64,000 nt of DNA from Chloroflexota bacterium (GTDB lineage Bacteria > Chloroflexota > Anaerolineae > Promineifilales > Promineifilaceae): contig JAKEFB010000120.1 in NCBI GenBank assembly GCA_022616275.1, forward strand, positions 62,001 through 126,000, written 5' to 3'. The translations under genes and the position numbers were made by a program. The number at the start of each line of letters is the position of its first letter. The first letter of the stretch is position 1. Positions 6,446-57,895 of this stretch are shown here, piece after piece. Below the pieces are notes generated by a model that had not been told where the DNA came from, did not search any database, and worked only from the letters and a program-made list of their open reading frames with translations.

Positions 6446-6461
6446 TATAGTATACTACAAA

Positions 6462-8414: not shown

Positions 8415-8430
8415 GAACCTCCGGGAGGTT
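8398..8430. terminator. Bidirectional hairpin of the AACCTCC palindrome family
   Basis: A perfect 15-bp inverted repeat: AACCTCCCGGAGGTT (8398-8412) and AACCTCCGGGAGGTT (8416-8430), loop AAG. It lies exactly between the convergent M23 and GMC genes and overlaps both stop codons (TAA at 8412-8414 on plus, TAA at 8432-8430 on minus). GC-rich stem followed by short T runs on both sides; it probably terminates both transcripts. Confidence 0.8.
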
Positions 8431-11845: not shown

Positions 11846-11857
11846 GAGGGCTCCTGC

Positions 11858-11894
11858 AAAAATCTCGACACGAATTGCACGAATTACACGAAAT
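11858..11894 (-). repeat. CACGAATT repeat directly upstream of an ABC gene start
   Basis: Between the two ABC genes lies CACGAATTGCACGAATTACA, preceded by 'AAAAATCTCG' and next to the CAGGAG Shine-Dalgarno of the downstream gene (read on minus). A related sequence with the same order of parts lies before the gene starting at 35441. It is probably a dispersed repeat. Confidence 0.5.
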
Positions 11895-11904
11895 TATTTT
11901 GAAA

Positions 11905-13686
11905 TCAGCGTTCATCAGGAAACTCTGCGCCCCTCTGCTGGTGTAACTGTGGCTGGACGTGCAGTTCATAAATCTGTTGGTAGAGGGGCGACGAGGCCAG
12001 CAGTGACTCGTGCGTGCCCTGGGCGACGAGCCGGCCGTATTCCAGGAGCAGGACCAGGTCGGCCCGCTGGACGGTGCTTAAGCGGTGAGCAATGATAAAG
12101 GTGGTGCGGCCGGCCATTAGCCGGTTTAGCGCCTGCTGGATCAGCCGTTCGGTCTTGTTGTCCACGCTGGCGGTGGCGTCGTCCAAAATCAGGATGCGGG
12201 GATCGGTCAGCAGGGCGCGGGCAATGGCCAGACGCTGCTTCTGGCCGCCGGATAACGTGACGCCCCGCTCGCCGACGTGGGTGTCGTACCCGGCCGGCAT
12301 GGCCATGATAAAGTCGTGGGCCTGGGCGTCTTGAGCAGCCTGGATAACGTCGGCTTCGGTGGCCTCCGGCCGGCCAAAGGCAATGTTCTCGCGAATCGTG
12401 GCGGCAAAGAGAATGGTATCCTGCATGACAAAGCCGATCTGGCTGCGCAGGGAGTGGAGGGTGGCGCAGCGGGTGTCGTGGCCATCTACGCGAATGGTCC
12501 CGGCCGTCGGGTCGTAGAAGCGGGCCATGAGGTTGACGAGCGTGGACTTGCCGGAACCGGTCGCGCCCATCAGAGCAACGATCTGGCCGGGCTGGACGGT
12601 AAAGGAAACGTCGCGCAGAATGGTGTGGCCACTCTGGTAGGCAAAGGAGGCGTGATCAAAGTGGACGTGGCCCTGGAGGCGGGGCAGCGGCCGGGCCTGG
12701 GGATCGTCGGCCACGTCAACGGGGGCGTCGAGAATGGCGAAGAGGCGTTCGCCGGCCGAGGCGGCAATGGCCAGGATGGGGATGATGCGGCCGATGTTGC
12801 GAATTGGCCCGACGAGCATGGCCAGGTAGGTGGTAAAAGCGACCAGCTCGCCCAGGGTCAACGACCCCTGGACGACCAGCCAGCCGCCGTACCAGAAGAT
12901 GAGGACGGTGCCAAAGTTGGCAATCATGTCGAGCATAGGGGCGTTGGCCGCCTGGACGCGAGTTGACTCGGCCGATAGATCGAAGAGCTTTTCGTTTTCG
13001 GCGACAAAGCGGTTGATTTCGGCTTCTTCCTGGGCAAAGGCTTTGACGATGCGCGCCCCGCGCAGGTTTTGCTCCAGTTGGGTGGTGAGGCGGCCGAGCT
13101 GGTCCTGGATTTCGAAGGACAAAGGGCGGAAACGGCGGCCGAAGGTGTAGGCGCGGTGAATGAGCGGCGGCAGAATGAGGAGGATCAGGGCCGCCAGGGC
13201 AGCATTCATCCAGACCAGGGCCACGGCGGTGAAGAGAATCAAAACCGTCCCTTCGACCAGGCGCAGGACGGCCCGGCCGGTCAGAAAGCGAATGCGCTCC
13301 ACGTCCTGCATGGCCCGGGTGAGAATCTGGCCGGCTTCGGTACGGTCGTGGAAGGAGAAAGAGAGGGTGGACAGCTTTTCCAGCAGCTCGCGGCGGAGAT
13401 CATAGGCCACGTTCTGGGAAGCTTCTTCGCTCCATTTGCCCTGGAAGAAGATGACGACGCCTTTGACCAGGGTCACGGCCAACAAGCCGCCGGCCGCCAG
13501 GCCAAGCAGGGTTAAATCGCCGCCAAAAATGCCCCGGTCAATACTCCAGCGGATGAGTTGGGGGGTGAGGATATTGGCCAGGTTAATGAGCAGCATGGCC
13601 AGGTAGATGCCGCCGGTCATTCGCCAGTAGGGGCGCAGGTAACGAAAACAGCGCCAGAGGATGTGCCAGTCGCTTTGTTTGGGCAT
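11905..13686 (-). CDS. ABC exporter half-transporter (Asp in place of catalytic Glu)
   Basis: 593 residues with an exporter-type transmembrane domain (about 20-330) and NBD. Walker A 'GATGSGKST' (about 374-382), canonical signature 'LSGGQ' (478-482), Walker B 'ILILDD' where the catalytic Glu is replaced by Asp503, H-loop 'AHRLS'. In heterodimeric exporters such as TM287/288 one site is degenerate in just this way: Glu-to-Asp in one subunit and an altered signature in the other. The partner gene 59 bp downstream has LSVGQ, so the degenerate site would comprise this Walker B and that signature. Likely exports lipids or toxic compounds, ATP-driven. Start ATG with no strong Shine-Dalgarno seen. 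Confidence 0.9.
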   Translation of the reverse strand: MPKQSDWHILWRCFRYLRPYWRMTGGIYLAMLLINLANILTPQLIRWSIDRGIFGGDLTLLGLAAGGLLAVTLVKGVVIFFQGKWSEEASQNVAYDLRRELLEKLSTLSFSFHDRTEAGQILTRAMQDVERIRFLTGRAVLRLVEGTVLILFTAVALVWMNAALAALILLILPPLIHRAYTFGRRFRPLSFEIQDQLGRLTTQLEQNLRGARIVKAFAQEEAEINRFVAENEKLFDLSAESTRVQAANAPMLDMIANFGTVLIFWYGGWLVVQGSLTLGELVAFTTYLAMLVGPIRNIGRIIPILAIAASAGERLFAILDAPVDVADDPQARPLPRLQGHVHFDHASFAYQSGHTILRDVSFTVQPGQIVALMGATGSGKSTLVNLMARFYDPTAGTIRVDGHDTRCATLHSLRSQIGFVMQDTILFAATIRENIAFGRPEATEADVIQAAQDAQAHDFIMAMPAGYDTHVGERGVTLSGGQKQRLAIARALLTDPRILILDDATASVDNKTERLIQQALNRLMAGRTTFIIAHRLSTVQRADLVLLLEYGRLVAQGTHESLLASSPLYQQIYELHVQPQLHQQRGAEFPDER

Positions 13687-13765
13687 GGTTTTGGGAGATT
13701 ATGCCAGACCCGGTACAGCAGCGTCAAACGATAAAGTAGACGGTGCCGCAGTCAGCTATCATTGC

Positions 13766-13817
13766 TTGACAAAGAACAATCGTTCCGCTAATATTTAACC
13801 ATATGGTTAAATATTAG
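13766..13817 (+). promoter_or_regulatory. Sigma70-type promoter with 30-bp palindromic operator over the -10 box
   Basis: TTGACA (13766-13771), 17-bp spacer, TAATAT (13789-13794). A perfect 30-bp palindrome with half-site CTAATATTTAACCAT occupies 13788-13817 and covers the -10 box and the start region. The ArsR-family gene 1.3 kb away carries a 25/30 match to the same palindrome over its own start, so this is very probably the binding site of that regulator, repressing the gene at 13854. Confidence 0.85.
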
Positions 13818-13853
13818 CGCTTGCCAACTCACAACGATAAAGGAGAATGAAAA

Positions 13854-14288
13854 ATGGCGGACGTATTACACCAGGTAGGTATTCAAGCATCGCCGGAAGA
13901 AGTGTACACAGCTCTTACAACTGTAAACGGTTTAAAAAGCTGGTGGTCAGAGCACAGCGCTATTGAACCCAAAGTTGGCTCACTAGCCAGCGTTAGCTTT
14001 TATAACAACGCCGTCACCTTCAAACTGAGAATCGCAGAACTGGTACCGGGCGAGAAGGTAGTTTGGGCTGTAGAAGGGGGACCCCCAGACTGGACGAACA
14101 CCAAGATTACGTGGACGATTTCAGAAAATAATGGCCAGAGTATGCTCCACCTGGCCCACCGTGGTTTTGCCTCAACAGAGGGGAATTTTGCCAATGTTAA
14201 TTACAATTGGGGCTGGTACGTCACCAGTCTAAAATTTTACCTCGAAAAAGGACAGGGCATGCCCCACACCGACGCCGATCTACGATAA
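13854..14288 (+). CDS. SRPBCC/AHSA1-family protein under ArsR control
   Basis: 144 residues with the START/AHSA1 layout: 'VGIQASPEEVYTALTTVNGL' (helix 1 and first strand), 'SWWSEHSAIEPKVGS', then 'LVPGEKVVWAVEGGPPDW' and 'FASTEGNFANVNYNWGWYVT' before the long C-terminal helix. The fold binds hydrophobic ligands; no catalytic residues are known. The AAAGGAG Shine-Dalgarno and a strong promoter with a palindromic operator lie directly upstream, and a second AHSA1 gene is coupled to the ArsR gene facing it. Proteins of this kind often respond to small molecules, but the ligand is unknown. The gene converges on the arsR-AHSA1 operon with 15 bp between stops. Confidence 0.85.
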   Translation: MADVLHQVGIQASPEEVYTALTTVNGLKSWWSEHSAIEPKVGSLASVSFYNNAVTFKLRIAELVPGEKVVWAVEGGPPDWTNTKITWTISENNGQSMLHLAHRGFASTEGNFANVNYNWGWYVTSLKFYLEKGQGMPHTDADLR

Positions 14289-14303
14289 GGTGGCCGGGTG
14301 ACG

Positions 14304-14756
14304 TCAATCGCTCAAAAAACGCGCCAATTTTTCTAAGATACCTACCCACCCTTCACTATGAGCGATACGGGCCTCCTTGGTCGAGAGTTGGGCGTGGGTA
14401 AGTCGCAAATCAGTTTTATTACCGTTGGCTCGAAACTCAAGCGTTACCAGGCTGGAGCCGATATCCATGTCTGCGTTTTCCCAACGCCAGGTAAACGCTA
14501 GCTTGTGTGGCGGTTGAATATTCTGGTAAATGCCACTTACAAAATAAGTCACCTGCCCCGGCCGTTGCACCCCCAGGCGATAGCGCCCGCCGACTCGAAA
14601 ATCAATTTCGGCCACTTTCACGACAGTACCAGGCGGTCCCCACCACTGTTCTAACAGACGTGGGTTCGTCCAGGCGGCAAAAACCTGTTCTGGTAAAGCG
14701 TCAAAGGTGCGCTCCAGGAATAGCAGTTCGCCCTGCTGGCTGTTGGCCTCGTCCAT
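14304..14756 (-). CDS. SRPBCC/AHSA1-family protein coupled to ArsR regulator
   Basis: 150 residues (ATG at 14756, overlapping the TGA of the ArsR gene as TGATG; a GTG one codon upstream is an alternative). AHSA1 features: 'FDALPEQVFAAWTNPRLLEQ', 'WWGPPGTVVKVAEIDFRVGG', 'YRLGVQRPG', and the C-terminal 'EARIAHSEGWVGILEKLARF' helix. ArsR-AHSA1 pairs are common in Actinobacteria and Chloroflexota, where translational coupling keeps regulator and AHSA1 protein in step. Probably a ligand-binding protein. Its paralogue at 13854 is transcribed from an operator-controlled promoter, so both would rise when the regulator lets go. Confidence 0.9.
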   Translation of the reverse strand: MDEANSQQGELLFLERTFDALPEQVFAAWTNPRLLEQWWGPPGTVVKVAEIDFRVGGRYRLGVQRPGQVTYFVSGIYQNIQPPHKLAFTWRWENADMDIGSSLVTLEFRANGNKTDLRLTHAQLSTKEARIAHSEGWVGILEKLARFLSD

Positions 14757-15100
14757 CACGTCTCATTCTCTGCTTTTGTTTTCTCCAAAAAACGCGCCAG
14801 CGAATCCAATTGACCTTCCCAAAAGCGCTCGTAGAGGGCCAACCAACCGGATGCTTCCCTTAAGGGGGTCGCGTTAAGGTGGCAAACGTGAATTCGCCCC
14901 TTTTTTTGGCGAACTAAAAGACCAGCCTGTTCCAGGACACGCAGATGCTTGGAAATGGCCGGCATAGAAATGTCGAACGGCCGGGCAATTTCTGTCACTG
15001 TAGCCGGTCCTTGCGCCAACCGGGAGAGGATCGCTCGGCGCGTAGGATCGGCAAGAGCGGCAAAAGTAGCGTCAAGAGGGGCAGTCGCATATTTAACCAT
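14756..15100 (-). CDS. ArsR/SmtB-family transcriptional repressor
   Basis: 114 residues. Winged-helix signature 'LADPTRRAILSRLAQGPATV', 'TEIARPFDISMPAISKHLRV', 'LEQAGLLVRQKKGRIHVCHL', followed by a C-terminal helix with 'YERFWEGQLDSLARFLE', the form found in ArsR proteins paired with AHSA1 genes. No paired Cys metal site is visible, so metal sensing is unlikely. I choose the ATG at 15100: upstream in-frame codons are not protein-like, and a TATAAT (minus strand, 15116-15111) puts the transcript start only a few bases before this ATG, so the mRNA may be leaderless. A 25/30 copy of the palindrome at 13788 covers -10 and start codon, indicating autorepression. Confidence 0.9.
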   Translation of the reverse strand: MVKYATAPLDATFAALADPTRRAILSRLAQGPATVTEIARPFDISMPAISKHLRVLEQAGLLVRQKKGRIHVCHLNATPLREASGWLALYERFWEGQLDSLARFLEKTKAENET

Positions 15101-15116
15101 ATCGTTAAGTATTATA
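15086..15116 (-). promoter_or_regulatory. arsR promoter -10 box and second palindromic operator
   Basis: Plus-strand half CGCATATTTAACCAT (15086-15100) and half ATCGTTAAGTATTAT (15101-15115) match the perfect operator at 13788-13817 in 25 of 30 positions. On minus, TATAAT lies at 15116-15111 with a weak -35. The operator overlaps both the -10 box and the first codons of the ArsR gene. Confidence 0.8.
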
Positions 15117-15266
15117 ACCTTAGTGAGTTTACATGACCATATACTGCAAAAGCCAACGCCGGCCGCTTGTCGAATCGGCCGTTGCTTACGCACGGATACT
15201 TTCAGCCAAGTTTGGTATAATTGCCGGCATACTTGTTGCGAACCAACTATGCTGGGAGAAAAAGCA

Positions 15267-15419
15267 ATGGCAAACAACGTGACAATAACCATTCCACAAA
15301 CTACGAGCTATTAACCAGCGGCCCCAATAGTACCCATTGGCCTCAGCCGCTCAGGGGATGCAATTATCGGCCAGGAAATTACTGCAAACGGCCCGGCCTA
15401 TGAAGTTTGGGTTAGCTGA
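15267..15419 (+). pseudogene. Small ORF interrupted by one in-frame TAA
   Basis: ATG after GGGAGAAAAAG begins MANNVTITIPQTTSY, then a TAA at 15312-15314, and the same frame continues with PAAPIVPIGLSRSGDAIIGQ to 'NGPAYEVWVS' and TGA. The two halves read as one 50-residue protein-like sequence. It could be a decayed small gene, the end of a formerly longer gene, or chance. I recognise no family. It ends 23 bp before the TPR gene. Confidence 0.35.
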
Positions 15420-15442
15420 GTAAAGCGTTAAATTCTGAGAAG

Positions 15443-17476
15443 ATGGCAAAACGTAAAAAACGAAAGACGGCCAAGAAATATTCACCTGCCCTACCCTCGC
15501 GAAAGCTGGAGAGGGCGGTTGACGAAGCGACAGAATTGTTCGAGGAAGGCGACTACGATGAGGCGGAGGCTCGCCTGGTGAAACTGGCCGAGCGTTACCC
15601 GGGCAGTAAACTCGTGCTGACAGCGTTAACTGAGGTATATCTCGAACTGGAGGATTGGTCGCCTTTTGCTCGTTACAGTGAGCAACTGCTTCCCCTGGAA
15701 CGAGGACCCGACCAGGCGGCAACCCTCAACAACATCATTGTCGCCTACACACAGCTTATGTACCCAGCCCTGGCCTGGCAGGCAGCGAAGAAAATAATCA
15801 GCCAGCACCCTGACTTCCCGGACATTGACAAAGCGCGCGCTTTAGCCCAAAAACTTGAAGAGTTCCTACGAGAACAGGCGGCCGAGTTACCAGGGACGGC
15901 CGATCTCGCGCCGGATGAGCAGATGGAAATGATGGTCCAGCACGACCGCATCCGTTTTTACACCGAGTCAGGCCAACCTAAACTGGCCATTGCGGCGGCC
16001 GAAGCGCTGCTGGAAAAGGTGCCAACCTTCATCCCCATCCTCAATAACCTCAGCCTGTCTCACTTTGTCACGGGTGACGTGGAGCGAGCCATTGCCGTTG
16101 CCCAACAGGTGTTGGCCCAGGCGCCTGACAATTTTCATGCCCTGGCCAATTTGACCCGTTACACCTTTCTAACAGGGCAGTTTGAGGCTGCCCGCCAACA
16201 CGCGGCGCGGCTGAAGCAACTGGCCGGCAGCAGCGCTGATTTGGTGACAAAACAAGCGGAGGCGCTGTCATTTCTCGGCGACGACGAAGGTATTCGCCAG
16301 GTATACCAGCGGGCAAAAAAGGGGCGGGAGCAATTATCGCCCTTACTGTTGCACCTGGCGGCGACGGCTCACTACCGCCTGGGTGATGAAAAGAAAGCCT
16401 GGCGCTTGTGGCGCGAAGCGATCAAGCAACAACCTTCCTTTTCACTGGCCCGGGCCTGTCTCGACGACGAGGATTTGCCAGTTGGGGAAAGAGATATACC
16501 CTGGTATTGGCCATTGCCATACTGGTTGCCCGCCAGCCTCCGCGAGGAACTTAAACAATTCGCAGCCAGCCCGGGGCGCACGAAAGATAATAAGGCCGCC
16601 GAAAAGGCTGCCCGCGCCTTACTTGACAAATACCCCTCTATAGCTCAACTCGCAGAGCACATGCTGGAGCGGGGCGACCACAGCGCCCGTGGATTTGTGA
16701 TTAACTTCGCCCGCCTTGCCGAGACGCCAGAGCTGGCAAATCCTCTTTATCATTTTGCGCTGGGGCGATATGGGAGTGACGACTTGCGGATGCAGGCTTT
16801 GCAGTTCGTCAGTGACCACCGGCCGGAATTGCTGCCGGAAGATAAAAAGGTGCCGTTCTGGACGCACGGGCAACAAACTGAAATCTTCTTCATGGGATTT
16901 GAAATTTATTACGAGCCGGAAACGCCGGAAGAGCTGGCCGACGACTTCATTGACAAATATTCAGAAGCGTACGATTTGCTCCTGGACGGCCGCCTGGAAG
17001 AGGCGGAACAGCTTTTCAAGGAAGTGATGGCCACTGCCCCCGACTTTCCCAGCGCCTATAATCAACTGGCGGTCGTTTACGAAAGGCAGGGCCGGCGCGA
17101 GGAAGCCCGGGCGTTGGTTGAGGAAACCCACGCCCGGTTCCCGGACTATCCTTTTGCCCGTATTGCCCTGGCCCGGCTGTACGCCCTGGAGAAGCGGACG
17201 GAGGAGGCCAAAGAGCTGGTTGGTCCTATCCTTGGCTACGAGCGCCTGCACATCAGCGAATTCCGGGCTTTAGCCCAGGCTCATATGGAAATTGCCCTGG
17301 CCGAAGGAAATAAAGAAGGAGCGCGCTCGTGGCTGAATATGTGGGCGGATGTCGAAGACGACCACCCTGATTTGCTGCAGTGGCGGGTACGCGTCGAAGG
17401 AGCTGATTTGTTTCTCCAGGACTTGAAGAAGATGGCCGGCCGTTTTGGCAAGAAAAGCGGCGGCCGGCGCAGATGA
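15443..17476 (+). CDS. Large tetratricopeptide-repeat protein
   Basis: 677 residues, basic N-terminus (MAKRKKRKTAKK) and basic C-terminus (GKKSGGRRR), no signal peptide, so cytoplasmic. TPR-type helix pairs are clear at about 25-80 ('EEGDYDEAEARLVKLAERYP'), 155-260 ('TGDVERAIAVAQQVLAQAPD'), 290-320 and again 505-600 ('DGRLEEAEQLFKEVMATAPD', 'QGRREEARALVEETHARFPD'). A central segment (about 320-490) with 'PWYWPLPYWLP' and 'GFEIYYEPETPEELADDF' is less repeat-like and may be a conserved domain of its own. TPR proteins act as protein-binding scaffolds. No partner can be named; downstream genes encode membrane proteins with their own spacing. Confidence 0.85.
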   Translation: MAKRKKRKTAKKYSPALPSRKLERAVDEATELFEEGDYDEAEARLVKLAERYPGSKLVLTALTEVYLELEDWSPFARYSEQLLPLERGPDQAATLNNIIVAYTQLMYPALAWQAAKKIISQHPDFPDIDKARALAQKLEEFLREQAAELPGTADLAPDEQMEMMVQHDRIRFYTESGQPKLAIAAAEALLEKVPTFIPILNNLSLSHFVTGDVERAIAVAQQVLAQAPDNFHALANLTRYTFLTGQFEAARQHAARLKQLAGSSADLVTKQAEALSFLGDDEGIRQVYQRAKKGREQLSPLLLHLAATAHYRLGDEKKAWRLWREAIKQQPSFSLARACLDDEDLPVGERDIPWYWPLPYWLPASLREELKQFAASPGRTKDNKAAEKAARALLDKYPSIAQLAEHMLERGDHSARGFVINFARLAETPELANPLYHFALGRYGSDDLRMQALQFVSDHRPELLPEDKKVPFWTHGQQTEIFFMGFEIYYEPETPEELADDFIDKYSEAYDLLLDGRLEEAEQLFKEVMATAPDFPSAYNQLAVVYERQGRREEARALVEETHARFPDYPFARIALARLYALEKRTEEAKELVGPILGYERLHISEFRALAQAHMEIALAEGNKEGARSWLNMWADVEDDHPDLLQWRVRVEGADLFLQDLKKMAGRFGKKSGGRRR

Positions 17477-47676: not shown

Positions 47677-48540
47677 ATGGAAGAGGTTTTGTTACAAGTG
47701 CAGGCGGCGCAGGCGGCGCTGGAGCCGCAGTTTAACGCCCTGCGGGCGGTGATGGGGGCGCTGAAAACAGCCGCGGCCCTGGCCGGGGAAGAGAAGGCCG
47801 ACGCGCTGCCGATGCAGAAGGCGCTGGCCAAATTGGAAACGGCCGCGGCTGGGGTGGAGAGCCAGGCGCTGGATGCGGCCGTGGCCGCTTTTGGCGCAGC
47901 CACGCAGACGGCCCTGGACAACCTGGCCTTTGAGTTCGCCAGGGATTTGCGCGACGAATTTGCGGCGCGCGGCGAAACGGTCGAGGGCCGGCCGCCGACG
48001 CTGGTGGTCGGGTTGTTGACCTTCAACCTGGAGATTGCCGCCCGGAAGGGGCAATGGTTGTATGGCAAGGAACCGCTGACCCGGCCGATTTCTCTCTCGT
48101 TGACCGGCATCCTCAAAGCGTACGACCAGCAGGTGAAAAACGTCGTCAAGCGGACGATTGATACGGAGAGCTTTCTACAAGAGCTGCACGAAGCGTGGAA
48201 CGATTGCATCAAGAAGCGCGACCGCAAGCCGGCCGGGGGGCGGATCAACGTCGTCGAGGTCTACAGCCAGTTGACCTTGAACCGGCAGAGCGCCCGCTTC
48301 TGGAACGCGCCGTCGCGGAGCACGTTCAAGGATTACGACCGGCCGCTCTTCGTCCGCGACCTGGCTCTCCTGCGCGACCAGAACGCCACCAGCCTGGCGG
48401 CCGACGGCAAGGTCCACGACCTGCGGCTGGGCGTGGCCACCAAGAGCCAGGCCGAACAGGCCAGCCGCAGCATCTGGCTGCCCGGCAATGGCCTGGATGG
48501 GGAGTATTATGGTGACGTGACGTTTGAAATCAGAGAATAG
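47677..48540 (+). CDS. Unknown protein, first gene of the BrxD-helicase cassette
   Basis: 287 residues from the ATG at 47677; upstream codons in this frame are not protein-like. Residues about 1-95 are Ala/Leu/Glu-rich helices, probably a coiled coil ('MEEVLLQVQAAQAALEPQFN', 'KALAKLETAAAGVESQALDA'). The rest is mixed alpha/beta: 'RPPTLVVGLLTFNLEIAARK', 'SLSLTGILKAYDQQVKNVVK', 'ESFLQELHEAWNDCIKKRD' and a C-terminal beta-rich end 'SRSIWLPGNGLDGEYYGDVT'. I recognise no family and no catalytic motif. It is followed after 53 bp by the first DUF2791 ATPase and probably belongs to the same transcript; it may be an adaptor or recognition subunit. This is inference from position. Confidence 0.7.
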   Translation: MEEVLLQVQAAQAALEPQFNALRAVMGALKTAAALAGEEKADALPMQKALAKLETAAAGVESQALDAAVAAFGAATQTALDNLAFEFARDLRDEFAARGETVEGRPPTLVVGLLTFNLEIAARKGQWLYGKEPLTRPISLSLTGILKAYDQQVKNVVKRTIDTESFLQELHEAWNDCIKKRDRKPAGGRINVVEVYSQLTLNRQSARFWNAPSRSTFKDYDRPLFVRDLALLRDQNATSLAADGKVHDLRLGVATKSQAEQASRSIWLPGNGLDGEYYGDVTFEIRE

Positions 48541-48580
48541 GGATTGGAGATTGGAGATTAATCTCTAATCTCTAATCTCC
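48541..48580. repeat. GATTGGA/AATCTCT heptamer hairpin
   Basis: ATTGGAG units (48544-48560) are followed by AATCTCT, AATCTCT, AATCTCC (48560-48580), nearly the reverse complement, forming a hairpin with no loop spacer. It starts one base after the stop codon of the unknown gene and leaves no Shine-Dalgarno for the next ATG. Confidence 0.85.
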
Positions 48581-48593
48581 CAAACAATTTTCA

Positions 48594-49886
48594 ATGACAA
48601 CAACCGATTCCGCCATCCCCCGCCCGCTGGCCCGGCACGTTATTGAGGTGTTGGGTAGTTTTGGCACACCGCCGGCGCGGGGCATCCAGCATTTTAACGT
48701 CGGCAACCACTCGCTGCTGAACGCGCTAGACGACTTTTACCTGTCGTCCTATTTGCAGGACGGCGGCGCGGCCTACAAGATGGTGATCGGCGATTACGGC
48801 AGCGGCAAGTCGCACTTCCTCTACTGCCTGCGCGACATCGCCTGGGAGCGGAACTTCGCCGTGGTCAAGGTGGACCTCAGCCCGGTGGAGACGCCCTACA
48901 ACGACCAGAAGAAGGTCTACGAGGCGGTGGCCAACAACATTCTCTGGCACGAGCCGGCCGAAGGCGTCAGCGACGACACGGGGTTGACGCGCTTCTTAGA
49001 AGGGACGCTGGAGCGGGTGATCGGCGGGCCGCTGAGCCTGGAGACGTTGACCAATCCGCTGTATCGCGGGCTGGTGGACACGCTGGAGGCGACGCCGGTG
49101 GACAGCCCGGCTTACCAGACGGCCGTCGTCGCCTATTTTGACAGCCTGGTCCGGGACCAGGAAGAGCGGCTGGACGCCCTGGCCCGCTGGCTGCTGGGTG
49201 AGCCGACGACGCCGGCCGACACCAAAATTCTGCGGGAGGTGGGAGTAACGGGCAAGATCAACCGGCCGAACGCCTTCCGCATGCTGCGCTCGCTGTGCCA
49301 GGTCATCCGCGCCCTGTCCTACAGCGGGCTGATCCTGCTCTTCGACGAGGTGGACCGGATGGCCAGCGTGGGCGGCAAGGCGGAGAAGCTGGCCACCGAC
49401 ACGCTGCGGGAAGTGATTGACCGGACGCGCGAAGATTTGCCGGGGGCCATGTTCGTCTACGCCGTCCCGCCGCAGTTTATCAACGACATCGTGCCCAAGT
49501 ACCCGGCCTTGCAGCAGCGGGTGCGCGCCCCCGGCCACTTTAGCCGCGTCAACCATTTCAGCCCGATGATCAGCCTGGACCACCTGGACCTGGACGAAGA
49601 CGACTTGATGCTGGCCATCGGCGAAAAGCTGATTCCCATTTACGAGACCGCTTTCGAGACGCAGTTGGACCATGCCGTGCAGCGGGCCAACGCCGCCATC
49701 CTGGCCAACGTGGCCCGCGACATCTTCCTGGACATCAGCCACCGCCGGCTGTTCGTCAAGTCGTTTGTGGTCGAGTTGTCGCGCCAGCATCACGGCCAGG
49801 AGCATACGATTACCGAGGAGGAAGCGCAGGCCATTTTGCGCGGCCAGGTTGAGGAGTTGACGGGTGGGGAAACGCCGCCGTATTAG
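48594..49886 (+). CDS. BrxD-like (DUF2791) P-loop ATPase 1
   Basis: 430 residues. Begins 'PRPLARHVIEVLGSFGTPPA' and 'NVGNHSLLNALDDFYLSSYL', then Walker A 'GDYGSGKSHFL' (66-76), 'VVKVDLSPVETPYNDQKKVY', a helical middle, and Walker B 'LILLFDEVDRM' (Asp251, Glu252) followed by 'DTLREVIDRTREDLPGAMFV' and 'YPALQQRVRAP', a sensor-like end. GDYGSGKSH plus the YND/YEA region is how DUF2791/BrxD proteins look; in BREX type 2 and related Pgl systems brxD stands beside a Lhr-type helicase, brxHI. Here it stands with a second BrxD-like protein and the helicase. Likely a DNA-linked ATPase. No ribosome site is visible in front of the ATG. Confidence 0.85.
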   Translation: MTTTDSAIPRPLARHVIEVLGSFGTPPARGIQHFNVGNHSLLNALDDFYLSSYLQDGGAAYKMVIGDYGSGKSHFLYCLRDIAWERNFAVVKVDLSPVETPYNDQKKVYEAVANNILWHEPAEGVSDDTGLTRFLEGTLERVIGGPLSLETLTNPLYRGLVDTLEATPVDSPAYQTAVVAYFDSLVRDQEERLDALARWLLGEPTTPADTKILREVGVTGKINRPNAFRMLRSLCQVIRALSYSGLILLFDEVDRMASVGGKAEKLATDTLREVIDRTREDLPGAMFVYAVPPQFINDIVPKYPALQQRVRAPGHFSRVNHFSPMISLDHLDLDEDDLMLAIGEKLIPIYETAFETQLDHAVQRANAAILANVARDIFLDISHRRLFVKSFVVELSRQHHGQEHTITEEEAQAILRGQVEELTGGETPPY

Positions 49887-49922
49887 GTTATTGGTTATTG
49901 GAATAACCAATAACCAATAACC
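49886..49922. repeat. GGTTATT/AATAACC heptamer hairpin
   Basis: GGTTATT (49886), GGTTATT (49893), GG, then AATAACC three times (49902-49922): a perfect 14-bp or longer stem that begins at the last base of the previous stop codon. It lies between the two BrxD-like genes, and no Shine-Dalgarno follows it. Confidence 0.9.
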
Positions 49923-49942
49923 ACTTACTAACCGTCACAGAT

Positions 49943-51337
49943 ATGATTGGCGAGAAGGTCGAACATCCCCAATTTGGGCCGGGGCAGGTGGTGGCGGTGT
50001 ACCGCAACGGGGCGGAGCTGATGGTGCGTTTTGCCAACGGGTTGCGTTTTCGCCGGCCGCGCCACGAATTTGTGAAGGACGGACAGGCTCTGGGCGAACC
50101 TAAACCGGCGTTTGCAGTCACGTACGAGCCGCCGCCGCCGATGAACCAGAGCCAGCGCGAAGCCCGGCAGCTCGTCGAGTCGCTGCGGGTGGGGATTGCC
50201 CCGGCCCAGCACGTGCCCGAACTGACCATTGACCTGAAGGCGGAGCGGGAAAGCCTGGTCCAGGCGCTGAACCAGGCCCACCAGCAGGGCGGCGCGGTGC
50301 GGGCGGTGGTCGGCGAATACGGTTACGGCAAAAGCCACATTGTCGAACTAACCACGCAGGAAGCGCTGGCCCGCAACTTCCTGGTAGCCCCGATCAGCCT
50401 GGACTTGCTGGAATTGCCGCCGCACCGGCCGTTTGACATTTACCGGGAAGCGATGAGCCACCTGCGCTACCCGGACTCAGACGAGCGGGGGCTGGAATTC
50501 CTGCTGGAGAAAACGGCCGACCCGGAACGGACGATTCCCCAACTACGCGATCTTTCCTCGGCCGGGCTCGACCCGCTGGTCGTCGGCCTGCAGGCCCTGG
50601 CCAACACGGCTTCCAGCCGCCAGCGCCAGGCCTGGACGAGGTGGCTGATGGGCGGCCGGCGGGTCTCGATCATGAACAGAGCCATGCCACGCGGCGTCAA
50701 GTTCCCGTCTATTTACAAGATCGGCCACAACGCCCGGCAAATCGCCTACCTGCTGACCGGGGTCAGCGCGCTGGCCAGGCTGGGTAACTACAGCGGCCTT
50801 TGCCTGCTGGTGGACGAGGCCGAGAGCTACTCGCTGCTGACCCCTTATCAACGGCCGAAAGCCAGCCTCTTCTTCCAGGCGGTTATCTACGCCGCGCTGC
50901 GCGATCAGCAAGAGCGGTTGAGCGAAGAGCAATTCCCGCAGCACCGCTGGCGCGATTACCCGATGGCTTACGGCCGGGGCCAGTCGCTCTTTTTCCTGTT
51001 CACGCTGACGCGCAGCGATAACCGGATGCCGCTGCAGGAGTGGCTGGACGAGGAGGAGATTTTTTACCTGGAACCGGAGGCCACGCCGCAGGAGATGGGC
51101 CACTTTTTGCAGCGTATTCTGGAGTATCACGCCCAGGCCTACGATTACCAATCGGGGGAGCGGCAGGGGCAGGTGCGGCGCGGCGCGGCCGAACACCTGG
51201 CCCAGGGGGCGCGCAGCGGCCGTTTCTCAATGCGCAGCGTCGTCCGGCTGGCGGTGGAGCTGTACGACCTCCTCTACCTTTACCCCGACTACGACGTGGC
51301 CACACTCCTGGACGAGCTGCGCGCCCAGACGCGGTGA
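49943..51337 (+). CDS. BrxD-like (DUF2791) P-loop ATPase 2 with N-terminal SH3-like domain
   Basis: 464 residues. Residues 2-45 ('GEKVEHPQFGPGQVVAVYRN', 'MVRFANGLRFRRPRHEF') form an SH3/Tudor-like module as in CarD-type and UvrD/PcrA C-terminal domains, which contact RNA polymerase or other proteins. Then a BrxD-type ATPase: Walker A 'GEYGYGKSHIVEL' (124-136), 'LDLLELPPHRPFDIYREAMS', Walker B 'CLLVDEAESYS' (Asp291, Glu292), 'RDQQERLSEEQFPQHRWRDY'. It is a diverged relative of the previous protein (430 aa), suggesting duplication and specialisation, perhaps a hetero-oligomeric ATPase. 20 bp from the helicase gene. Cytoplasmic. Confidence 0.85.
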   Translation: MIGEKVEHPQFGPGQVVAVYRNGAELMVRFANGLRFRRPRHEFVKDGQALGEPKPAFAVTYEPPPPMNQSQREARQLVESLRVGIAPAQHVPELTIDLKAERESLVQALNQAHQQGGAVRAVVGEYGYGKSHIVELTTQEALARNFLVAPISLDLLELPPHRPFDIYREAMSHLRYPDSDERGLEFLLEKTADPERTIPQLRDLSSAGLDPLVVGLQALANTASSRQRQAWTRWLMGGRRVSIMNRAMPRGVKFPSIYKIGHNARQIAYLLTGVSALARLGNYSGLCLLVDEAESYSLLTPYQRPKASLFFQAVIYAALRDQQERLSEEQFPQHRWRDYPMAYGRGQSLFFLFTLTRSDNRMPLQEWLDEEEIFYLEPEATPQEMGHFLQRILEYHAQAYDYQSGERQGQVRRGAAEHLAQGARSGRFSMRSVVRLAVELYDLLYLYPDYDVATLLDELRAQTR

Positions 51338-51356
51338 GAGCAGTGACGCCGGGCAA

Positions 51357-53426
51357 ATGAAAAACTATGGGAAACAGTCTGAGGTAAAGGGGCGGATTCC
51401 GCACACATGGCCGCTCTTTTTTGGCCGGCACGGCCGGTTTAGCGAGGTACAACTCCAGGCCATCCCCCCTATCCTCGACGGCCGGGATACGCTGGTCGTC
51501 GCCGCTACCGCTTCGGGCAAGACAGAGGCGGTTATTGCGCCGCTGCTGGAACGGCAGTGGCAGCGGCTGCGCCAGCCCCGCCTGGCCATCCTTTACCTTT
51601 GCCCGACGCGGGCGCTGGTGCGCGATCTGTACGAACGGCTGCGGCCGCCATTGGCCGATACCGGCATTGCCTTGAGCATGAAAACGGGGGACACCGGGCC
51701 GCTGGACGCGCAACGGCCGCCGGCCATCCTCCTGACCACACCCGAATCCACCGATTCCTTACTGACGCGCGCGCCCAGGCTCTTCGGCAAGCTGGAGGTG
51801 ATCGTCCTCGACGAAATTCACCTGTTTGACAATACGCCGCGCGGTGACCACATGCGCTGCCTGCTACCGCGCCTGGAACATATCCGGCAGTACACCCGGC
51901 CAGAAGCGCCGCCGGCGCAGCGCGTCGCCCTGTCGGCCACTGTGCCCGACCCGGCCGGGGTGGCCCGGCGCTATCTGCAAACGGGCGTGGTCGTCAGCGT
52001 GCCCGGCGGGCGGCAAATTGTGCCGGAGATTTCACCACTGTACAGCCTGGCGGAGTTGACCCAGGCGCTGGCCCAACGGGCGGCGCAAAAGTCGCTGGTA
52101 TTCTGCAATTCGCGGGAAGAGGTGGAGCAGACGGCCGCCTTTCTGCGCCAACGCCTGCCCCATTACGCCGAGATTTTTGTTCATTACAGCAACCTGGACG
52201 CAGCCATGCGCCAGGAGGTCGAGAGCCGCTTCGCGGCGGCGGCCGTGGCGGTGTGTGTCTGTACCTCGACGCTGGAGTTGGGTATTGACATCGGCACTGT
52301 GGACGACGTGGTCCTCCTGGGCGCGCCGCCTACTCTGACGTCGTTTTTGCAGCGTGTCGGCCGGGGCGGCCGGCGGACGGCGCAGATGCGGGTGCTGTGT
52401 ATGCCCAAGTCGCCGGGGGAGTGGGCGCGGTTTGAGGCTTTGATTCGGCTGGCAGGGGACGGAGTTGGCCGGGCCAACTCAGAACAGGGGGCAGGGGAGC
52501 AGGGACTGGAGGTGGAGGATGTGGCGGTGTATGGCTTCCGGCCGTCGGCGCTGGTGCAGCAGATTTTCAGCCTGATGAAGCAAAGCCCGACGGGGAGTGT
52601 GCGGCCGGCCGACGTGCGGCGGATCGCCCCGCCGGAGGTGACCAGCGAGGAGATCCGCCAGATTTTTTCGCACCTGGTCTTTGACCGCTATCTGCAACCG
52701 GGCCGGCCGGGGGAGTGGAAACCGGCCGAGAAGCTACAAGAGTTGTTGGATCGGCACGAGATTTACAGCAACATCGGCGCGGACGTGCGGGCGGCGACCG
52801 CGGTAGACGCCTACACGGGCCAGGTCATTGCCCAGACGGAGCGAGCGTACCCCAGGGGAACGGTCGTCCTGTTTGGCGGTCGGCCGATGGAGGTGGTCTG
52901 GCGGGAAAAGTACCGCTTTGGCCTGGCCCCGGCGCAGGGCCGGGAGGCGGGCGAGGTCTTGCGTTTCCTGAAAACGTACGCGGCCATTCCTTTTGTGGTA
53001 ACCCAGATGGTGGCCCGCTCGCTGGGCCTCCGGCCGGGGCAAATGGCGGTGCTGCCGGCCGAGCCGGGGCTGTGGCTGTTTCATTTTTGGGGGACGGTGT
53101 GGGGGGAGTTGCTGGCTGCCTTGTTGCTGGCCGGCGGCGCCGGCGCCGAGCCGGTCAACGAGTATTGCCTGCATCTCAGCCGGCCGCTGGCCCAACTGCC
53201 ACCCTGGGACGAAAAGCTGGGGCAAAAGGTGGCCAGGGATAGGGCGGTGGTTCTGGCCGGTCGGCTGGAGATGGGCCGCTTTCACCAGTTGTTGCCGGCC
53301 GGGGTGGCCGTTCCGGCCGTGGTCCGGCAGTTGAATATGGAGCGGCTCAGGCAGGTATACCAATCCGCAACCATTGTTCATCTGTCCGAGCTATACCCGC
53401 GACTGGATATGTTAGCTCATTCGTGA
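51357..53426 (+). CDS. Lhr/BrxHI-like DEAD/DEAH-box helicase
   Basis: 689 residues. Superfamily 2 motifs: Q-like 'SEVQLQAIPPILDGRDTLVV', I 'AATASGKT' (49-56), Ia 'PTRALVRDL', II 'VLDEIH' (DEIH 152-155), III 'ALSAT' (about 192-196), IV 'LVFCNSREE', V 'CTSTLELGIDIG', VI 'QRVGRGGR' (332-339). DEIH box and 'STLELGIDIG.vD.V' mark it as the Lhr-type branch used in BREX as BrxHI. The C-terminal half (about 370-689) lacks the DUF1998 Zn domain. An insertion 'NSEQGAGEQG' (near residue 377) is encoded by a G-rich repeat. As the last gene of the cassette it would translocate on DNA with the BrxD-like ATPases. Confidence 0.88.
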   Translation: MKNYGKQSEVKGRIPHTWPLFFGRHGRFSEVQLQAIPPILDGRDTLVVAATASGKTEAVIAPLLERQWQRLRQPRLAILYLCPTRALVRDLYERLRPPLADTGIALSMKTGDTGPLDAQRPPAILLTTPESTDSLLTRAPRLFGKLEVIVLDEIHLFDNTPRGDHMRCLLPRLEHIRQYTRPEAPPAQRVALSATVPDPAGVARRYLQTGVVVSVPGGRQIVPEISPLYSLAELTQALAQRAAQKSLVFCNSREEVEQTAAFLRQRLPHYAEIFVHYSNLDAAMRQEVESRFAAAAVAVCVCTSTLELGIDIGTVDDVVLLGAPPTLTSFLQRVGRGGRRTAQMRVLCMPKSPGEWARFEALIRLAGDGVGRANSEQGAGEQGLEVEDVAVYGFRPSALVQQIFSLMKQSPTGSVRPADVRRIAPPEVTSEEIRQIFSHLVFDRYLQPGRPGEWKPAEKLQELLDRHEIYSNIGADVRAATAVDAYTGQVIAQTERAYPRGTVVLFGGRPMEVVWREKYRFGLAPAQGREAGEVLRFLKTYAAIPFVVTQMVARSLGLRPGQMAVLPAEPGLWLFHFWGTVWGELLAALLLAGGAGAEPVNEYCLHLSRPLAQLPPWDEKLGQKVARDRAVVLAGRLEMGRFHQLLPAGVAVPAVVRQLNMERLRQVYQSATIVHLSELYPRLDMLAHS

Positions 53427-53777
53427 GATTGCAAACAACTCCCGTTGTCGTTTGACAATAGCTTCAACGTGGTCCGGCCAATCGTGCAGAACGGTAGGAT
53501 CGATATCTGCCCCGTTGGGCCACTCCAGAGCGCCAAAGGTCTCTTCCAACTGTACCTGCTTGAAAAACTCCGGATTGCGCAGTGGACCAAACATCGGACC
53601 ATTCAATATAGGCTCGAAATCAATAAGCTGCCGGGAGCCATCGTCAAATTCAATACGCAACACGTAATCGCCGACGCTTTCAAATTCAGTGACGCGGTAC
53701 AACCTGGAACCATAAGGTTTGTGCTTGTCCATAAACATTCTGATAACTATCCCATAAAACCGTGAAATCTCTGGCAT
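53412..53777 (-). CDS. DUF4160::DUF2442 fusion protein
   Basis: 121 residues. The first 20 ('MPEISRFYGIVIRMFMDKHK') are the conserved start of DUF4160 proteins, which normally go on with 'PPHFH'. After residue ~22 the sequence becomes 'YRVTEFESVGDYVLRIEFDD', 'GSRQLIDFEPILNGPMFGPL', 'LEWPNGADIDPTVLHDWPDH', a near-complete DUF2442 domain. DUF4160 and DUF2442 are usually separate adjacent genes, often considered a toxin-antitoxin-like pair. A deletion that removed most of DUF4160 and the DUF2442 start explains the fusion. The 3' end overlaps the helicase 3' end by 15 bp, tail to tail. Confidence 0.75.
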   Translation of the reverse strand: MPEISRFYGIVIRMFMDKHKPYGSRLYRVTEFESVGDYVLRIEFDDGSRQLIDFEPILNGPMFGPLRNPEFFKQVQLEETFGALEWPNGADIDPTVLHDWPDHVEAIVKRQRELFAISRMS

Positions 53778-54389
53778 ATGCGGTTATCCAGCGGCATTTA
53801 TAGCCCAAATACTCTCATGAACCTACTTCAGAGTAGGCTTTAATCAGGATATGCTATCATGTTTTAGCTTACTTATCGAGTTATGGGCGAGACCAAATTA
53901 GAGTAAACGCACTGGCCCGAGTAGGCTGTAGCAGCCAAATTGCAGGGCCAAGGACTGGAAGAAGAGGAGCTGCTTCAGGCTTTCTTCAGGTTTCTGGTTT
54001 CATCGGGCTAATAGGTGGTACAGACATTGATGGATGAGTACGGCCATTTGTTGGTGCGCAAATCCCATGCCTGGTTGCTTCTGGCCCGGCGTGGCTATAA
54101 AGTTCCCGTCCAGCAGCAGTAGAACCCAGGGATAGCTTCATGCCCCGCGTTTACGTTTCTGAGGCACTCCGGCTCAAAGTGGCAGAAGATGCCAGGCACC
54201 GCTGTGGCTATTGCCTGACGGCGCAAGAATTTACGGCAATGCCCTTGCATGTCGAGCACTTCATCCGTGCCCGACGCCGGTGGGTGCTGGCTGGTTGGCA
54301 CCCGCCAGAACTCTAAGAGTTTTAGCCGCTTGGTTCCTCTAAAAGACTCAAGGAGCGATGGCGGCCGTCTCCCGCCATCGTTGGGCTTG
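53778..54389. other. 612-bp decayed region with gene remnants
   Basis: Besides the HNH remnant (54140-54316), a 30-codon plus ORF at 54030-54122 reads 'MDEYGHLLVRKSHAWLLLAR' 'RGYKVPVQQQ' and looks like a protein tail, and codons about 53938-54010 read 'LQGQGLEEEELLQAFFRFLV' before a stop. Neither has a start context or recognisable family. No promoter or repeat seen. A second patch of accessory-gene decay, next to the BrxD cassette. Confidence 0.5.
54140..54316 (+). pseudogene. 5' part of an HNH endonuclease gene
   Basis: ATG then 'PRVYVSEALRLKVAEDARHR', 'CGYCLTAQEFTAMPLHVEHF', IRA. This is the start of HNH endonucleases of the type 'V...LR..V...A...C.YC......HIDH.IP', with the CxxC and the first His. 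After 'HFIRARR' the match ends and the frame stops 15 codons later; the second half with the Asn and the last His is missing. No product with nuclease activity is expected. Confidence 0.7.
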
Positions 54390-55478: not shown

Positions 55479-55657
55479 AGCAAAATACTATATCACAAAC
55501 AAGAAAATGGACTCAAATCCTCATCATCTGGCTATTAATCAGCTCTCAGCTTTCGGTATGGTTTGTCGTGACGGGCTTTAGCCCCGAGCGGGCTTTTGCG
55601 GTAAAATGGGAGTCTGGGTTCCTGTCTAAACCCACCCAAGGAATCCCCGGCGGGACG

Positions 55658-57895
55658 ATGCTGGACCTCAAAGATTTTAACTACCTGCCCTCTCTGGACG
55701 CCGCCATCGGCCAGCTCGTCAGCGACGGGCCGGGACTGGTGGTAGTCGCCGGGCTGGACCCCCGGCCGCACGGGACGCCCGGCGGGCAAGAGGAGATACT
55801 GCCCAGCGGCCGGGCGACGATCTTCCGCATCCTGGTCCGCCGGCTGCTGCCGGAAAGCCCCCAGCGCGGCTCCCGCCGGGAGCGCGCCATCGTCATCGCT
55901 GCCAGCCGCGACGCCGTCCGGCTGCCGCGCGCCCTGCGCTACCAGGTAACCATCCACCTGGTGAACAAGGCCCATTCTTACGAGGACTCTATCCGCGCCG
56001 CCAGCCTGCTTCGCCCCGATTTGCTGGTGGTGGACACACTCAATGAGGAAACAACTGCGCTGGTATTAGAGGCAGCACAAAGCGGCCTGAAGGTCCTCTC
56101 TCAAATAGATACCATCTTTCACGGCGCAGACGTAGCCCGCCGCTTGCTGGAGCTAGGCGCGTCGCGGGAGTTGCTGGCGGCGCTGCGCTGGGTGGTTACC
56201 GTGCAACGCCTGGCCACGCTTTGTCCCCATTGTAAGCAACCCGTGGCGGCCGAGGCCGTTGACTGGCCGGCCCTGCAACGGCGCTACCCTGCCCTGCCCG
56301 GCCTGGAGAGCAACGTCTTCTACCGCAGCGCTGGCTGCGTCCACTGCGCCGGTACGGGCTGGCTCGGCGAGGCGGCCGCCTTCGACGTTTACCGGGCCGA
56401 CGGCAAAGACCCCCTGGAAGGAGCCAGCCTGCTGCCGCTGGAACAGTACGTCTTTGAGCTGGCCACGGCCGGGCAGGTGGCGCTGGACGACTTGCTCCGG
56501 CTGGAAACGGCCCAGGTGCGCCAGACTTACCAGCTCCTTCTGACCAGCGAGCAGGCCCTGAGCGAAGCCAACCTGGCCCTGCAGCGCCGGCTGGCCCAAC
56601 TGGAGGCGGCTAATAAAGTGCTGCAAGAGCGGACCGAGGCCCTGGTCTCGCTGCACGAGGTCAGCCAGACCCTGTTGAGCGCGGCCGGGCTGGCCGAACA
56701 GGCGCAGCGGGTCTGCATTCAATGTTGCGCCCTATCCGGGGCCGACCGGGCGGTCCTCTACTATTTGAACTCACCTGACACGGCCCAGGTGCTGGCCAGC
56801 TACGGCTGGGACCTGGCTCGCGTCCCGGCCCGGGTAGAGGCCCGCCTATTGAACCTGACTGCTGGCCAGAGCGAGGCCGAGCCGTTCAAGAGCCCGCCAC
56901 CGGGAATTCCTTTCGGCCACCCTGACCGGGAGGGGGCGGAGTTGCGGGCCGGGCTGCGCGTGCCCCTGATGACCGACGGCCGGCCGGTGGGGCTGCTGGT
57001 CGTGCATACCATCCGCAAGAGTGGCTTTGGGCCGGGCGAGGTAGCCCTGCTGCAAACGTTCGCCAACCAGGCGGCGCTGGCCATCCAGCGGGCCGGCTTG
57101 CTGGAGCAGTTGCAGGCCAAGGTGGCCGCCCTGGAGGCGGCCCAGGTTGGGCTGGCCCAGAAGGAACGGCTGGAGCGGGAGCTGGAGCTGGCCCGGCAGG
57201 TGCAGCAACGGATGCTGCCCCACACTTTTCCCCATATCCCTGGTTTCCACTTTGCCACGCTGAACCGGCCGGCGCGGCACGTCGGCGGCGATTTTTACGA
57301 CGTTATTGCTCTGGACGACGACTACTTCGGCGTGGCCGTGGCCGACGTGTCTGACAAGGGGATGCCGGCCGCCCTGTACATGGCCCTGACGCGTAGTTTG
57401 CTGCTGGCCGAGGCGCGGCGCACCTGTTCGCCGGGGGATGTGCTGCGGGCGGTCAACGACCTGCTGCTGCGACTGGGCGAGCCGGATATGTTTGTGACCG
57501 TCTTTTATGGCGTGGTCGAGCGTGGCACGCGGCGCTTCATCTACGGCCGGGCCGGCCACGACCGGCCGTTCTTGCTGCGAGACGGGGACGTACTGGAGTT
57601 GGACGGCCAGGGCCTGGTCTTGGGCCTGCTGGGGAATGAGCGATTACACCTGGAAGAAGTCGAGCTAGAACTCCGGCCGGGAGACCGGCTGGTGCTGTAC
57701 AGCGACGGGCTGACCGACGTGGTGGCGGCCGACGGGCAGATGTACGACCGGCGACAGTTCCAGGCCCTGCTGCGGCAGCACGCCACGCTGCCGCCGGACG
57801 CCCTCTGCCGGGCCGTCTTCGAGGCCCTGCAAACCTACCAGGGCGCGGCCGAGCAGTACGACGACATGACGCTGCTGGTGGTGGGGGTGGAATAA
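55658..57895 (+). CDS. Pseudo-GspE/PilB domain - GAF - SpoIIE (PP2C) phosphatase
   Basis: 745 residues from the ATG at 55658 (an upstream start at 55568 is less protein-like). Residues about 10-250 follow the type II secretion/pilus ATPase C-terminal domain in order: 'GPGLVVVAGLDPRPHGTPGG' in place of Walker A, 'DLLVVDTLNEETTALVLEAA' in place of Walker B/His box, 'RWVVTVQRLATLCPHC', and a zinc site with CPHC (189/192) and CVHC (227/230). The GxxGxGKS/T lysine is absent, so ATP hydrolysis is unlikely. Then a coiled coil (about 290-335), GAF (about 335-495) and SpoIIE phosphatase (about 530-745): 'GGDFYDVIAL', 'ADVSDKGMPAALYM', 'YSDGLTD', 'YDDMTLLVV'. A regulatory phosphatase with an unusual input domain. 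Confidence 0.85.
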   Translation: MLDLKDFNYLPSLDAAIGQLVSDGPGLVVVAGLDPRPHGTPGGQEEILPSGRATIFRILVRRLLPESPQRGSRRERAIVIAASRDAVRLPRALRYQVTIHLVNKAHSYEDSIRAASLLRPDLLVVDTLNEETTALVLEAAQSGLKVLSQIDTIFHGADVARRLLELGASRELLAALRWVVTVQRLATLCPHCKQPVAAEAVDWPALQRRYPALPGLESNVFYRSAGCVHCAGTGWLGEAAAFDVYRADGKDPLEGASLLPLEQYVFELATAGQVALDDLLRLETAQVRQTYQLLLTSEQALSEANLALQRRLAQLEAANKVLQERTEALVSLHEVSQTLLSAAGLAEQAQRVCIQCCALSGADRAVLYYLNSPDTAQVLASYGWDLARVPARVEARLLNLTAGQSEAEPFKSPPPGIPFGHPDREGAELRAGLRVPLMTDGRPVGLLVVHTIRKSGFGPGEVALLQTFANQAALAIQRAGLLEQLQAKVAALEAAQVGLAQKERLERELELARQVQQRMLPHTFPHIPGFHFATLNRPARHVGGDFYDVIALDDDYFGVAVADVSDKGMPAALYMALTRSLLLAEARRTCSPGDVLRAVNDLLLRLGEPDMFVTVFYGVVERGTRRFIYGRAGHDRPFLLRDGDVLELDGQGLVLGLLGNERLHLEEVELELRPGDRLVLYSDGLTDVVAADGQMYDRRQFQALLRQHATLPPDALCRAVFEALQTYQGAAEQYDDMTLLVVGVE

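Follow-up and report, generated by a model that had tools for sequence, protein, structure and literature searches.

An unnamed four-gene operon of Chloroflexota with BREX- and Shango-like parts, a candidate defence system

Two described systems lie closest to the locus considered here. In those types of BREX (bacteriophage exclusion) that have both BrxD and BrxHI, a BrxD ATPase, termed an ORC-Cdc6 ATPase after the origin recognition complex (ORC), is found together with the BrxHI helicase, which according to one proposal it may load (PMC12839542); backup effectors inside BREX and BREX-related loci are reported in the same source. Shango (SngA-SngB-SngC), described as an anti-phage system (PMC10250203), packs an accessory protein, a BrxD-like ATPase and a helicase into a compact operon, and is found on plasmids. 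According to PMC12278908, the helicases of Shango, BREX, Druantia and Dpd (SngC, BrxHI, DruE, DpdJ) may make up a clade whose defining trait is antiphage function. The subject of this report is an operon of related parts, A-B-C-D, in a 64,000-nucleotide stretch of a Chloroflexota genome (contig JAKEFB010000120.1, positions 62,001 to 126,000; hereafter the window). On balance we think it probable that this is a so far unnamed operon for defence against mobile elements such as phages and plasmids, forming a third lineage beside the BREX types with BrxD and BrxHI and beside Shango. The main text of PMC12839542 mentions neither Shango, TerB, DUF2791 nor Chloroflexota, and no description of the four-gene set was found in the open-licence literature, a scope outside which most subscription papers and preprints lie.

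The genes lie on the forward strand of an assembly of 8.5 Mb (98% complete), separated by gaps of 53, 56 and 19 bp (Table 1). The first-pass annotation, made from the sequence of the window, had described two DUF2791-type ATPases, one with an SH3-like module, and a DEIH-box helicase, preceded by an unrecognised gene and without the BREX core; each of these points is borne out below. Its explanation, a ‘reduced or distinct’ surveillance or defence module, survives in part: a distinct module of BrxD/BrxHI-like parts fits what was found, and a reduced BREX does not, because the helicase forms a separate clade and the duplication that gave the two ATPases predates the spread of the operon. Kinship to BREX components was correctly seen; Shango, equally close, was not named.

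The four proteins and their relatives

Both ATPases score well above the gathering cut-off of the Pfam family BrxC_BrxD (PF10923; B 165 bits, C 90 bits, cut-off 22.2), with intact Walker A motifs (GDYGSGKSH in B, GEYGYGKSH in C) and the acidic residues of Walker B; on these sequence grounds they belong to that superfamily. The Walker residues are invariant across 23 aligned rows of B, and across 20 aligned rows of C spanning three phyla. The PADLOC models score B as BrxD (129 bits) and SngB (100 bits), and the NCBIfam BrxD equivalog NF033438, with its cut-off of 350 bits, is missed by both proteins (B 135, C 69.5 bits). The ATPase tree gathers C into one clade (97/95), from which locus L113 splits off at a weakly supported root; B is monophyletic in just 28% of bootstrap trees and falls outside the Shango clade, and both L113 rows sit on long branches. 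The B/C split predates the split between the Chloroflexota and plasmid copies. By this phylogeny the BrxD/SngB ATPase is present in the operon as an old pair of paralogues, B and C. The N-terminus of C is a Tudor/SH3-like stretch (PcrA_UvrD_tudor, E 0.003, 17.8 bits, under the Pfam cut-off of 23.9) that is missing in the Aulosira, Desulfomonile and L113 copies. The named relatives of C come from Ardenticatenaceae, Anaerolineae and other Chloroflexota metagenome-assembled genomes (MAGs).

The helicase D has the expected motifs (DEIH and QRVGRGGR), and the helicase motifs are invariant across 21 rows. Its best PADLOC matches are BrxHI (251 bits) and SngC (226 bits), with DpdJ also among the best; the ligase-associated DEXH helicase model TIGR04121 gives 177.5 bits, far under its cut-off of 850. 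Helicase trees place D in a clade of its own (100/100), separate from BrxHI and SngC; the six Shango SngC proteins form another (92/96), apart from D, and the join of the D clade to BrxHI, SngC and E. coli Lhr has low support (43/68). The Shango reference loci L059, L060 and L115 match TerB_N/TerB_C; L118 is BREX, with PglZ.

For gene A, Pfam and PADLOC give no match at E 1, and NCBIfam a single model, far under its cut-off. Among 25 of the 31 Pfam families matched by 21 aligned members, none is matched by more than one member (best E 0.014) and TerB families are absent. Foldseek searches of the PDB and viral libraries returned nothing at E 0.001, and a profile search of PDB sequences gave weak matches (best E 0.013). 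Frataxin-like rows for the middle of the protein, and rows for the helical hairpin of tRNA synthetases, were weak and were not accepted as relatives. At the C-terminus the weak structural rows include ORC chains, Cdt1/geminin and plasmid TubR, and the structure model suggests that this part is likely a winged helix. A is a new family, in which a predicted helical hairpin is joined to this likely winged helix. Within the order, 20 of the 57 genomes have an intact A, and one more (G005) a remnant. Each of the 20 also carries C, so A is a conserved subunit of the operon. The median distances (A 0.45, D 0.48, C 0.38, B 0.25) do not make A the fastest-evolving of the four.

Like BREX with BrxD and BrxHI, then, the operon sets a BrxD-like ORC-Cdc6 ATPase beside a helicase of the BrxHI kind, and the recruitment of backup effectors within BREX loci (PMC12839542) has its likeness here, as shown below. 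Unlike BREX, it has two ATPases, and no PglX, BrxC, BrxA or BrxE among its genes. PglZ (PF08665) is found nowhere in the 8.5 Mb of the home genome. Across the order it occurs in 9 of 57 genomes (8 over the cut-off), including only two of the 23 that carry the operon (G006 and G013), on contigs other than the operon's; homologous operons are thus not confined to larger BREX loci. For a BrxC/PglY partner, the PF10923 search of the home genome finds B, C and one match of 20.4 bits, under the cut-off, on another contig (C129:5374-5547, within an open frame of 1163 residues). For the PglX/BrxX methyltransferase, Pfam and PADLOC scans of the four proteins, and of these alone, give no match. Operon and BREX can also stand side by side: on plasmid3 of Aulosira, a BREX locus (BrxE-BrxA-BrxC-PglX-PglZ-BrxD-BrxHI) is followed directly, head to tail, by A-B-C-D (L117/L121), and the ATPase and helicase copies of that BREX locus are separate paralogues rather than the nearest relatives of B, C or D.

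With Shango the operon shares its compact layout and its presence on plasmids. It differs in lacking a TerB-domain protein, in having two ATPases rather than one, a first subunit with a likely winged helix, a separate helicase clade, and two junctions, B/C and C/D, that hold cargo genes. A superfamily 2 (SF2) helicase in immunity is also common ground with Hachiman, Druantia and Dpd, from which the absence of a recognised core nuclease sets the operon apart; the partner proteins of Druantia and Dpd are also unlike those found here. With PglZ missing at home, A free of TerB matches and D in its own fully supported clade, the operon is, as far as sequence comparison goes, neither BREX nor Shango. 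Among characterised systems Shango stands as close to it as BREX does, and the operon is best placed within the BREX/Shango kind.

Distribution, conservation and loss

A-B-C-D is a real, conserved unit. All 25 Chloroflexota loci of the junction count (below) that hold all four genes have them in this order on one strand, as do L110 and L112 from other classes. Among the genomes from other classes, the complete set in this order is present in G439 and G613, and A-B-C in G566; G538 carries B and C with a doubtful A (19 bits), and G450 the two ATPases only. The same order recurs on two plasmids, the conjugative plasmid3 of Aulosira laxa NIES-50 (Cyanobacteriota) and the 27 kb pDESTI.01 of Desulfomonile tiedjei (Thermodesulfobacteriota), which also encodes ParA and a DNA polymerase. 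These plasmid relatives surfaced through C, then through the Aulosira and Desulfomonile A proteins; a plasmid search with the window's A gave no match. No viral contig matched the C profile, in a search made through two short peptide patterns, and phage records gave no match to Desulfomonile A or to the window's B.

The operon is patchy. C is found in 25 of the 57 genomes of the order at E 1e-5, two of which (G007 and G044) arise via the ATPases of Shango loci only, leaving 23 with the operon; good-quality genomes of the order give 8 of 19 after the same exclusion. Class-wide, C occurs in 40 of 397 genomes, far from the universal presence at a fixed position that a class-wide housekeeping set would have, and a sample of the phylum gives 7 of 400 at E 1e-20. 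Incomplete loci are of several kinds. C without A is seen in three genomes (G023, G030, G048), whose contigs stop before the position of A; in G023 two other genes lie upstream of C at the expected position of B. In L091 (10236-11249; genome G150) a PF04754 gene (Transposase_31, YhgA-like) takes that position directly upstream of C, and may be B/C cargo, the contig ending soon after. D runs off the contig end in L046 (G175) and L090 (G105) and is split over two frames in L095 (G344).

The pairwise distances of the four proteins correlate (r 0.87-0.98 over 24 loci, these being related rows and not independent), and the trees of B, C and D show like branching. Between G003 and G004 the ratio of nonsynonymous to synonymous substitution rates (dN/dS) is 0.11 for A, 0.05 for B, 0.08 for C and 0.20 for D; for this one genome pair, all four genes are under purifying selection. 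D can nevertheless be missing, as G311 (98% complete, 5 contigs) indicates: its locus (L099, 6731-12010) runs A-B-C and then continues with flavin-reductase and LGT genes, and D is absent genome-wide at E 1e-20. In G396, B-C is followed by an unrelated AAA protein and the end of a short contig; neither it nor G538 has a D-like match at E 1e-20. G566 and G450 have D-like matches of 125 and 162 bits on other contigs, far short of the 375-398 bits that the plasmid D proteins gave in a different search. Where D is missing, the A-B-C part may be functional alone, or decaying.

Flanking genes are mostly not common to different loci. Close kin share theirs (G004/G006; G231/G344; G169/G373/G404). In one family, three loci (L095, 3729-6287; L096, 3743-6205; L088, 1113-3539) have a RecJ-like exonuclease gene upstream of A, immediately before it in L095 and L096; the RecJ domains were scanned in L088 and L095, and L096 is assigned by similarity. 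A SWIM-domain gene lies upstream in L034 and L037; on the downstream side, L048, L086-L088 and L091 share an ABC-transporter ATPase (29-40% identity; L086-L088 mutually 85-86%); other sharing consists of weak pairs only. Among 53 genomes of the family, the right-hand neighbour of the window's operon has a single other occurrence, in G015, where the surroundings are unshared and offer no empty site for comparison. Since C forms one clade in the home family (99/99), the patchiness there reflects mostly old presence followed by loss. In families f16 and f39 the deep lineages of C number two and three respectively. One loss has left a trace: in G005, of the same genus as G003, G004 and G006, a decayed remnant (L139, 8319-9174) has pieces of A adjoining pieces from the C-terminal half of D, with B and C gone.

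Exchangeable genes at two junctions

What the first-pass annotation did not foresee is cargo inside the operon: restriction-modification (R-M) genes, GmrSD, PIN and nucleotidyltransferase genes, and toxin-antitoxin genes. Extra genes lie in 8 of 36 loci at B/C and in 15 of 32 at C/D; at A/B there are none in 35, the largest gap there being 321 bp, at a locus where A is frameshifted. A locus whose contig stops short of the following core gene contributes no value to this count; at L084 A is hidden by a longer overlapping frame of B, and the A/B value of L061 includes the frameshifted A. Genes for restriction, methylation, a nuclease or toxin-antitoxin, or from listed defence families, are present in 19 of the 23 cargo junctions (B/C 4 of 8, C/D 15 of 15), one of the 19 counting only through a match under the Pfam cut-off and three by likeness to scanned genes.

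Cargo changes while the core stays. In G003, G004 and G006 the A, B and C proteins are 92-97% identical and D 85-88%; G003 and G006 share one R-M pair and one restriction endonuclease (REase) pair, and G004 has instead a different R-M pair and a RelE-like gene. A Shango locus, L059 (G007, 4570-17293), with a TerB_N/TerB_C protein, SngB and SngC, has its SngB and SngC parted by two genes (362 and 1359 aa), so that in-operon cargo may be a feature of Shango as well.

Table 1. The operon in the window, and cargo at its junctions in other loci (MTase, methyltransferase; HTH, helix-turn-helix)
Feature	Position or locus	Strand	Description
Gene A	47677..48540	+	287 aa, new family
Gene A domains	residues 1-97; about 100-157; 161-287		helical hairpin; alpha/beta middle; likely winged helix
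Gene B	48594..49886	+	430 aa, BrxD/SngB-like AAA+ ATPase, most conserved subunit
Gene C	49943..51337	+	464 aa, second, divergent BrxD/SngB-like ATPase, N-terminal Tudor-like domain
Gene D	51357..53426	+	689 aa, SF2 helicase of BrxHI/SngC kind
A/B junction	48541..48593	.	short palindrome 48546-48580; inserted gene in 0/35 loci
B/C junction	49887..49942	.	cargo socket, empty in window copy; short palindrome 49886-49922
C/D junction	51338..51356	.	main cargo socket, empty in window copy
B/C cargo	L037		GmrSD
B/C cargo	L038		AHJR-type REase + RusA
B/C cargo	L047		RelE/ParE-like, under cut-off
B/C cargo	L049		AbiLi/AriA-like ATPase + DUF4276 (just under cut-off) + nucleotidyltransferase
B/C cargo	L042, L086, L087, L088		no convincing known family, or HTH only
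C/D cargo	L034, L047		Type II MTase + REase
C/D cargo	L038, L040		Type II MTase + REase, by similarity to L034
C/D cargo	L041		MTase
C/D cargo	L037		PIN + DUF433
C/D cargo	L039		YoeB, beside 2-phosphosulpholactate phosphatase
C/D cargo	L049		HEC-01A-like ATPase + DUF4276
C/D cargo	L053, L054		AbiEii (L054 alike by eye)
C/D cargo	L087, L091		AAA + PIN
C/D cargo	L088		HNH
C/D cargo	L089		HigB
C/D cargo	L100		HicB

Function and surroundings of the operon

We infer a defence function, and with it a mechanism that extends to complex formation, the loading of D and the roles of A and of the cargo. A, through its likely winged helix, would bind or recognise target DNA; B and C, as paralogues of the ORC/Cdc6-type AAA+ kind, would form with it a mixed, ATP-driven assembly; this assembly would load or activate D, a translocating helicase, on the invading DNA, the replication or establishment of which would thereby be blocked. 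The A-B-C-D core has no recognised nuclease, and destruction of the invader, or altruistic death of the cell, might then be supplied by the exchangeable modules (R-M, GmrSD, AAA with PIN or DUF4276, toxin-antitoxin). A more ambitious version, which we put forward tentatively, makes the operon an independent third class of defence by ORC-like ATPase and immune helicase, in which the two ATPases are specialised and a winged-helix subunit does the targeting. The operon would then be a modular chassis, its sockets fixed at B/C and C/D, where restriction, nuclease and toxin-antitoxin effectors are exchanged around a nearly constant core.

Other ways of understanding the operon have to be set against this defence reading. 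It might be a divergent Shango, with SngA replaced by A, SngB duplicated and the mechanism the same, and so no separate kind. The likeness of layout, the scores of B on SngB and D on SngC, and the two genes between ATPase and helicase in Shango locus L059 all point that way; the BrxD and BrxHI models, however, outscore those of Shango, A has no TerB match, the Shango helicases and D fall in separate clades, and the duplication behind B and C came before any of the operon's spread, so that we think this unlikely. The view that the four genes instead form a module by which the DNA of integrative elements or plasmids is replicated or maintained (an origin-binding winged helix, ORC/Cdc6-like ATPases and a helicase), with no part in defence, draws on the ORC, Cdt1/geminin and TubR rows for A, on the ORC-Cdc6 designation of BrxD cited above, and on the two plasmid copies, one of them in company with ParA and DNA polymerase. 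Swappable R-M or GmrSD cargo would be unexpected in such a module, and the helicase is of the BrxHI/SngC kind; the flanks in MAGs are mostly unshared and the few neighbours scanned are host-like, in a survey that did not search systematically for integrases or replicon type. We regard this view as quite improbable.

Little credence attaches to a housekeeping role in DNA repair or genome maintenance in Anaerolineae, built on an Lhr-like helicase. Such a role would suit the dN/dS values, all well below 1, the single clade within the family, the RecJ-like gene upstream in three loci and the match of D to the ligase-associated model; that match is far under its cut-off, the operon has decayed in G005, and it is missing from 34 of the 57 genomes of the order, including 11 of the 19 of good quality (the Shango match of G044 excluded). 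As for a degraded fragment of a BREX locus, suggested by BrxD and BrxHI as the best named models and by the adjoining BREX of Aulosira, the chance seems next to negligible: the Aulosira BREX comes with a separate BrxD and BrxHI, neither of them the nearest relative of B, C or D, A matches no PADLOC BREX model, the window genome has no PglZ, and the trees largely contradict it.

If the operon is indeed for defence, it bears on a question still open in BREX, the role of the BrxD-BrxHI pair. With a stand-alone four-gene relative, complete on a 27-kb plasmid, the proposed loading of an immune helicase by an ORC-like ATPase could be tested without the BREX methylation machinery. The sockets, for their part, offer a natural series of combinations of core and effector, including near-identical cores with differing cargo, which bears on whether the cargo genes are backups, effectors or passengers.

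The surroundings in the window are varied. The first-pass annotation had placed decayed toxin-antitoxin and HNH remnants next to the operon. The former corresponds to a DUF2442 match in an intact-looking open reading frame directly downstream of D (53412-53777, reverse strand); its first residues presumably resemble the start of a DUF4160 protein, and it looks as if a toxin-antitoxin-like pair had been fused through a deletion. The latter is a short stub at about 54141-54280 (forward strand) that breaks off, and which we take from its motif to be HNH-endonuclease-like. The A/B and B/C gaps each hold one near-perfect palindrome (Table 1), built of repeated short words; further palindromes in the window recur as look-alike pairs (8398/9994, 34874/35600 and 27308/39740). 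At 55568-57895 (forward strand) a single chain combines, by Pfam, a part like the Type II/IV secretion ATPases with GAF and a SpoIIE phosphatase, a combination that seemed unusual.

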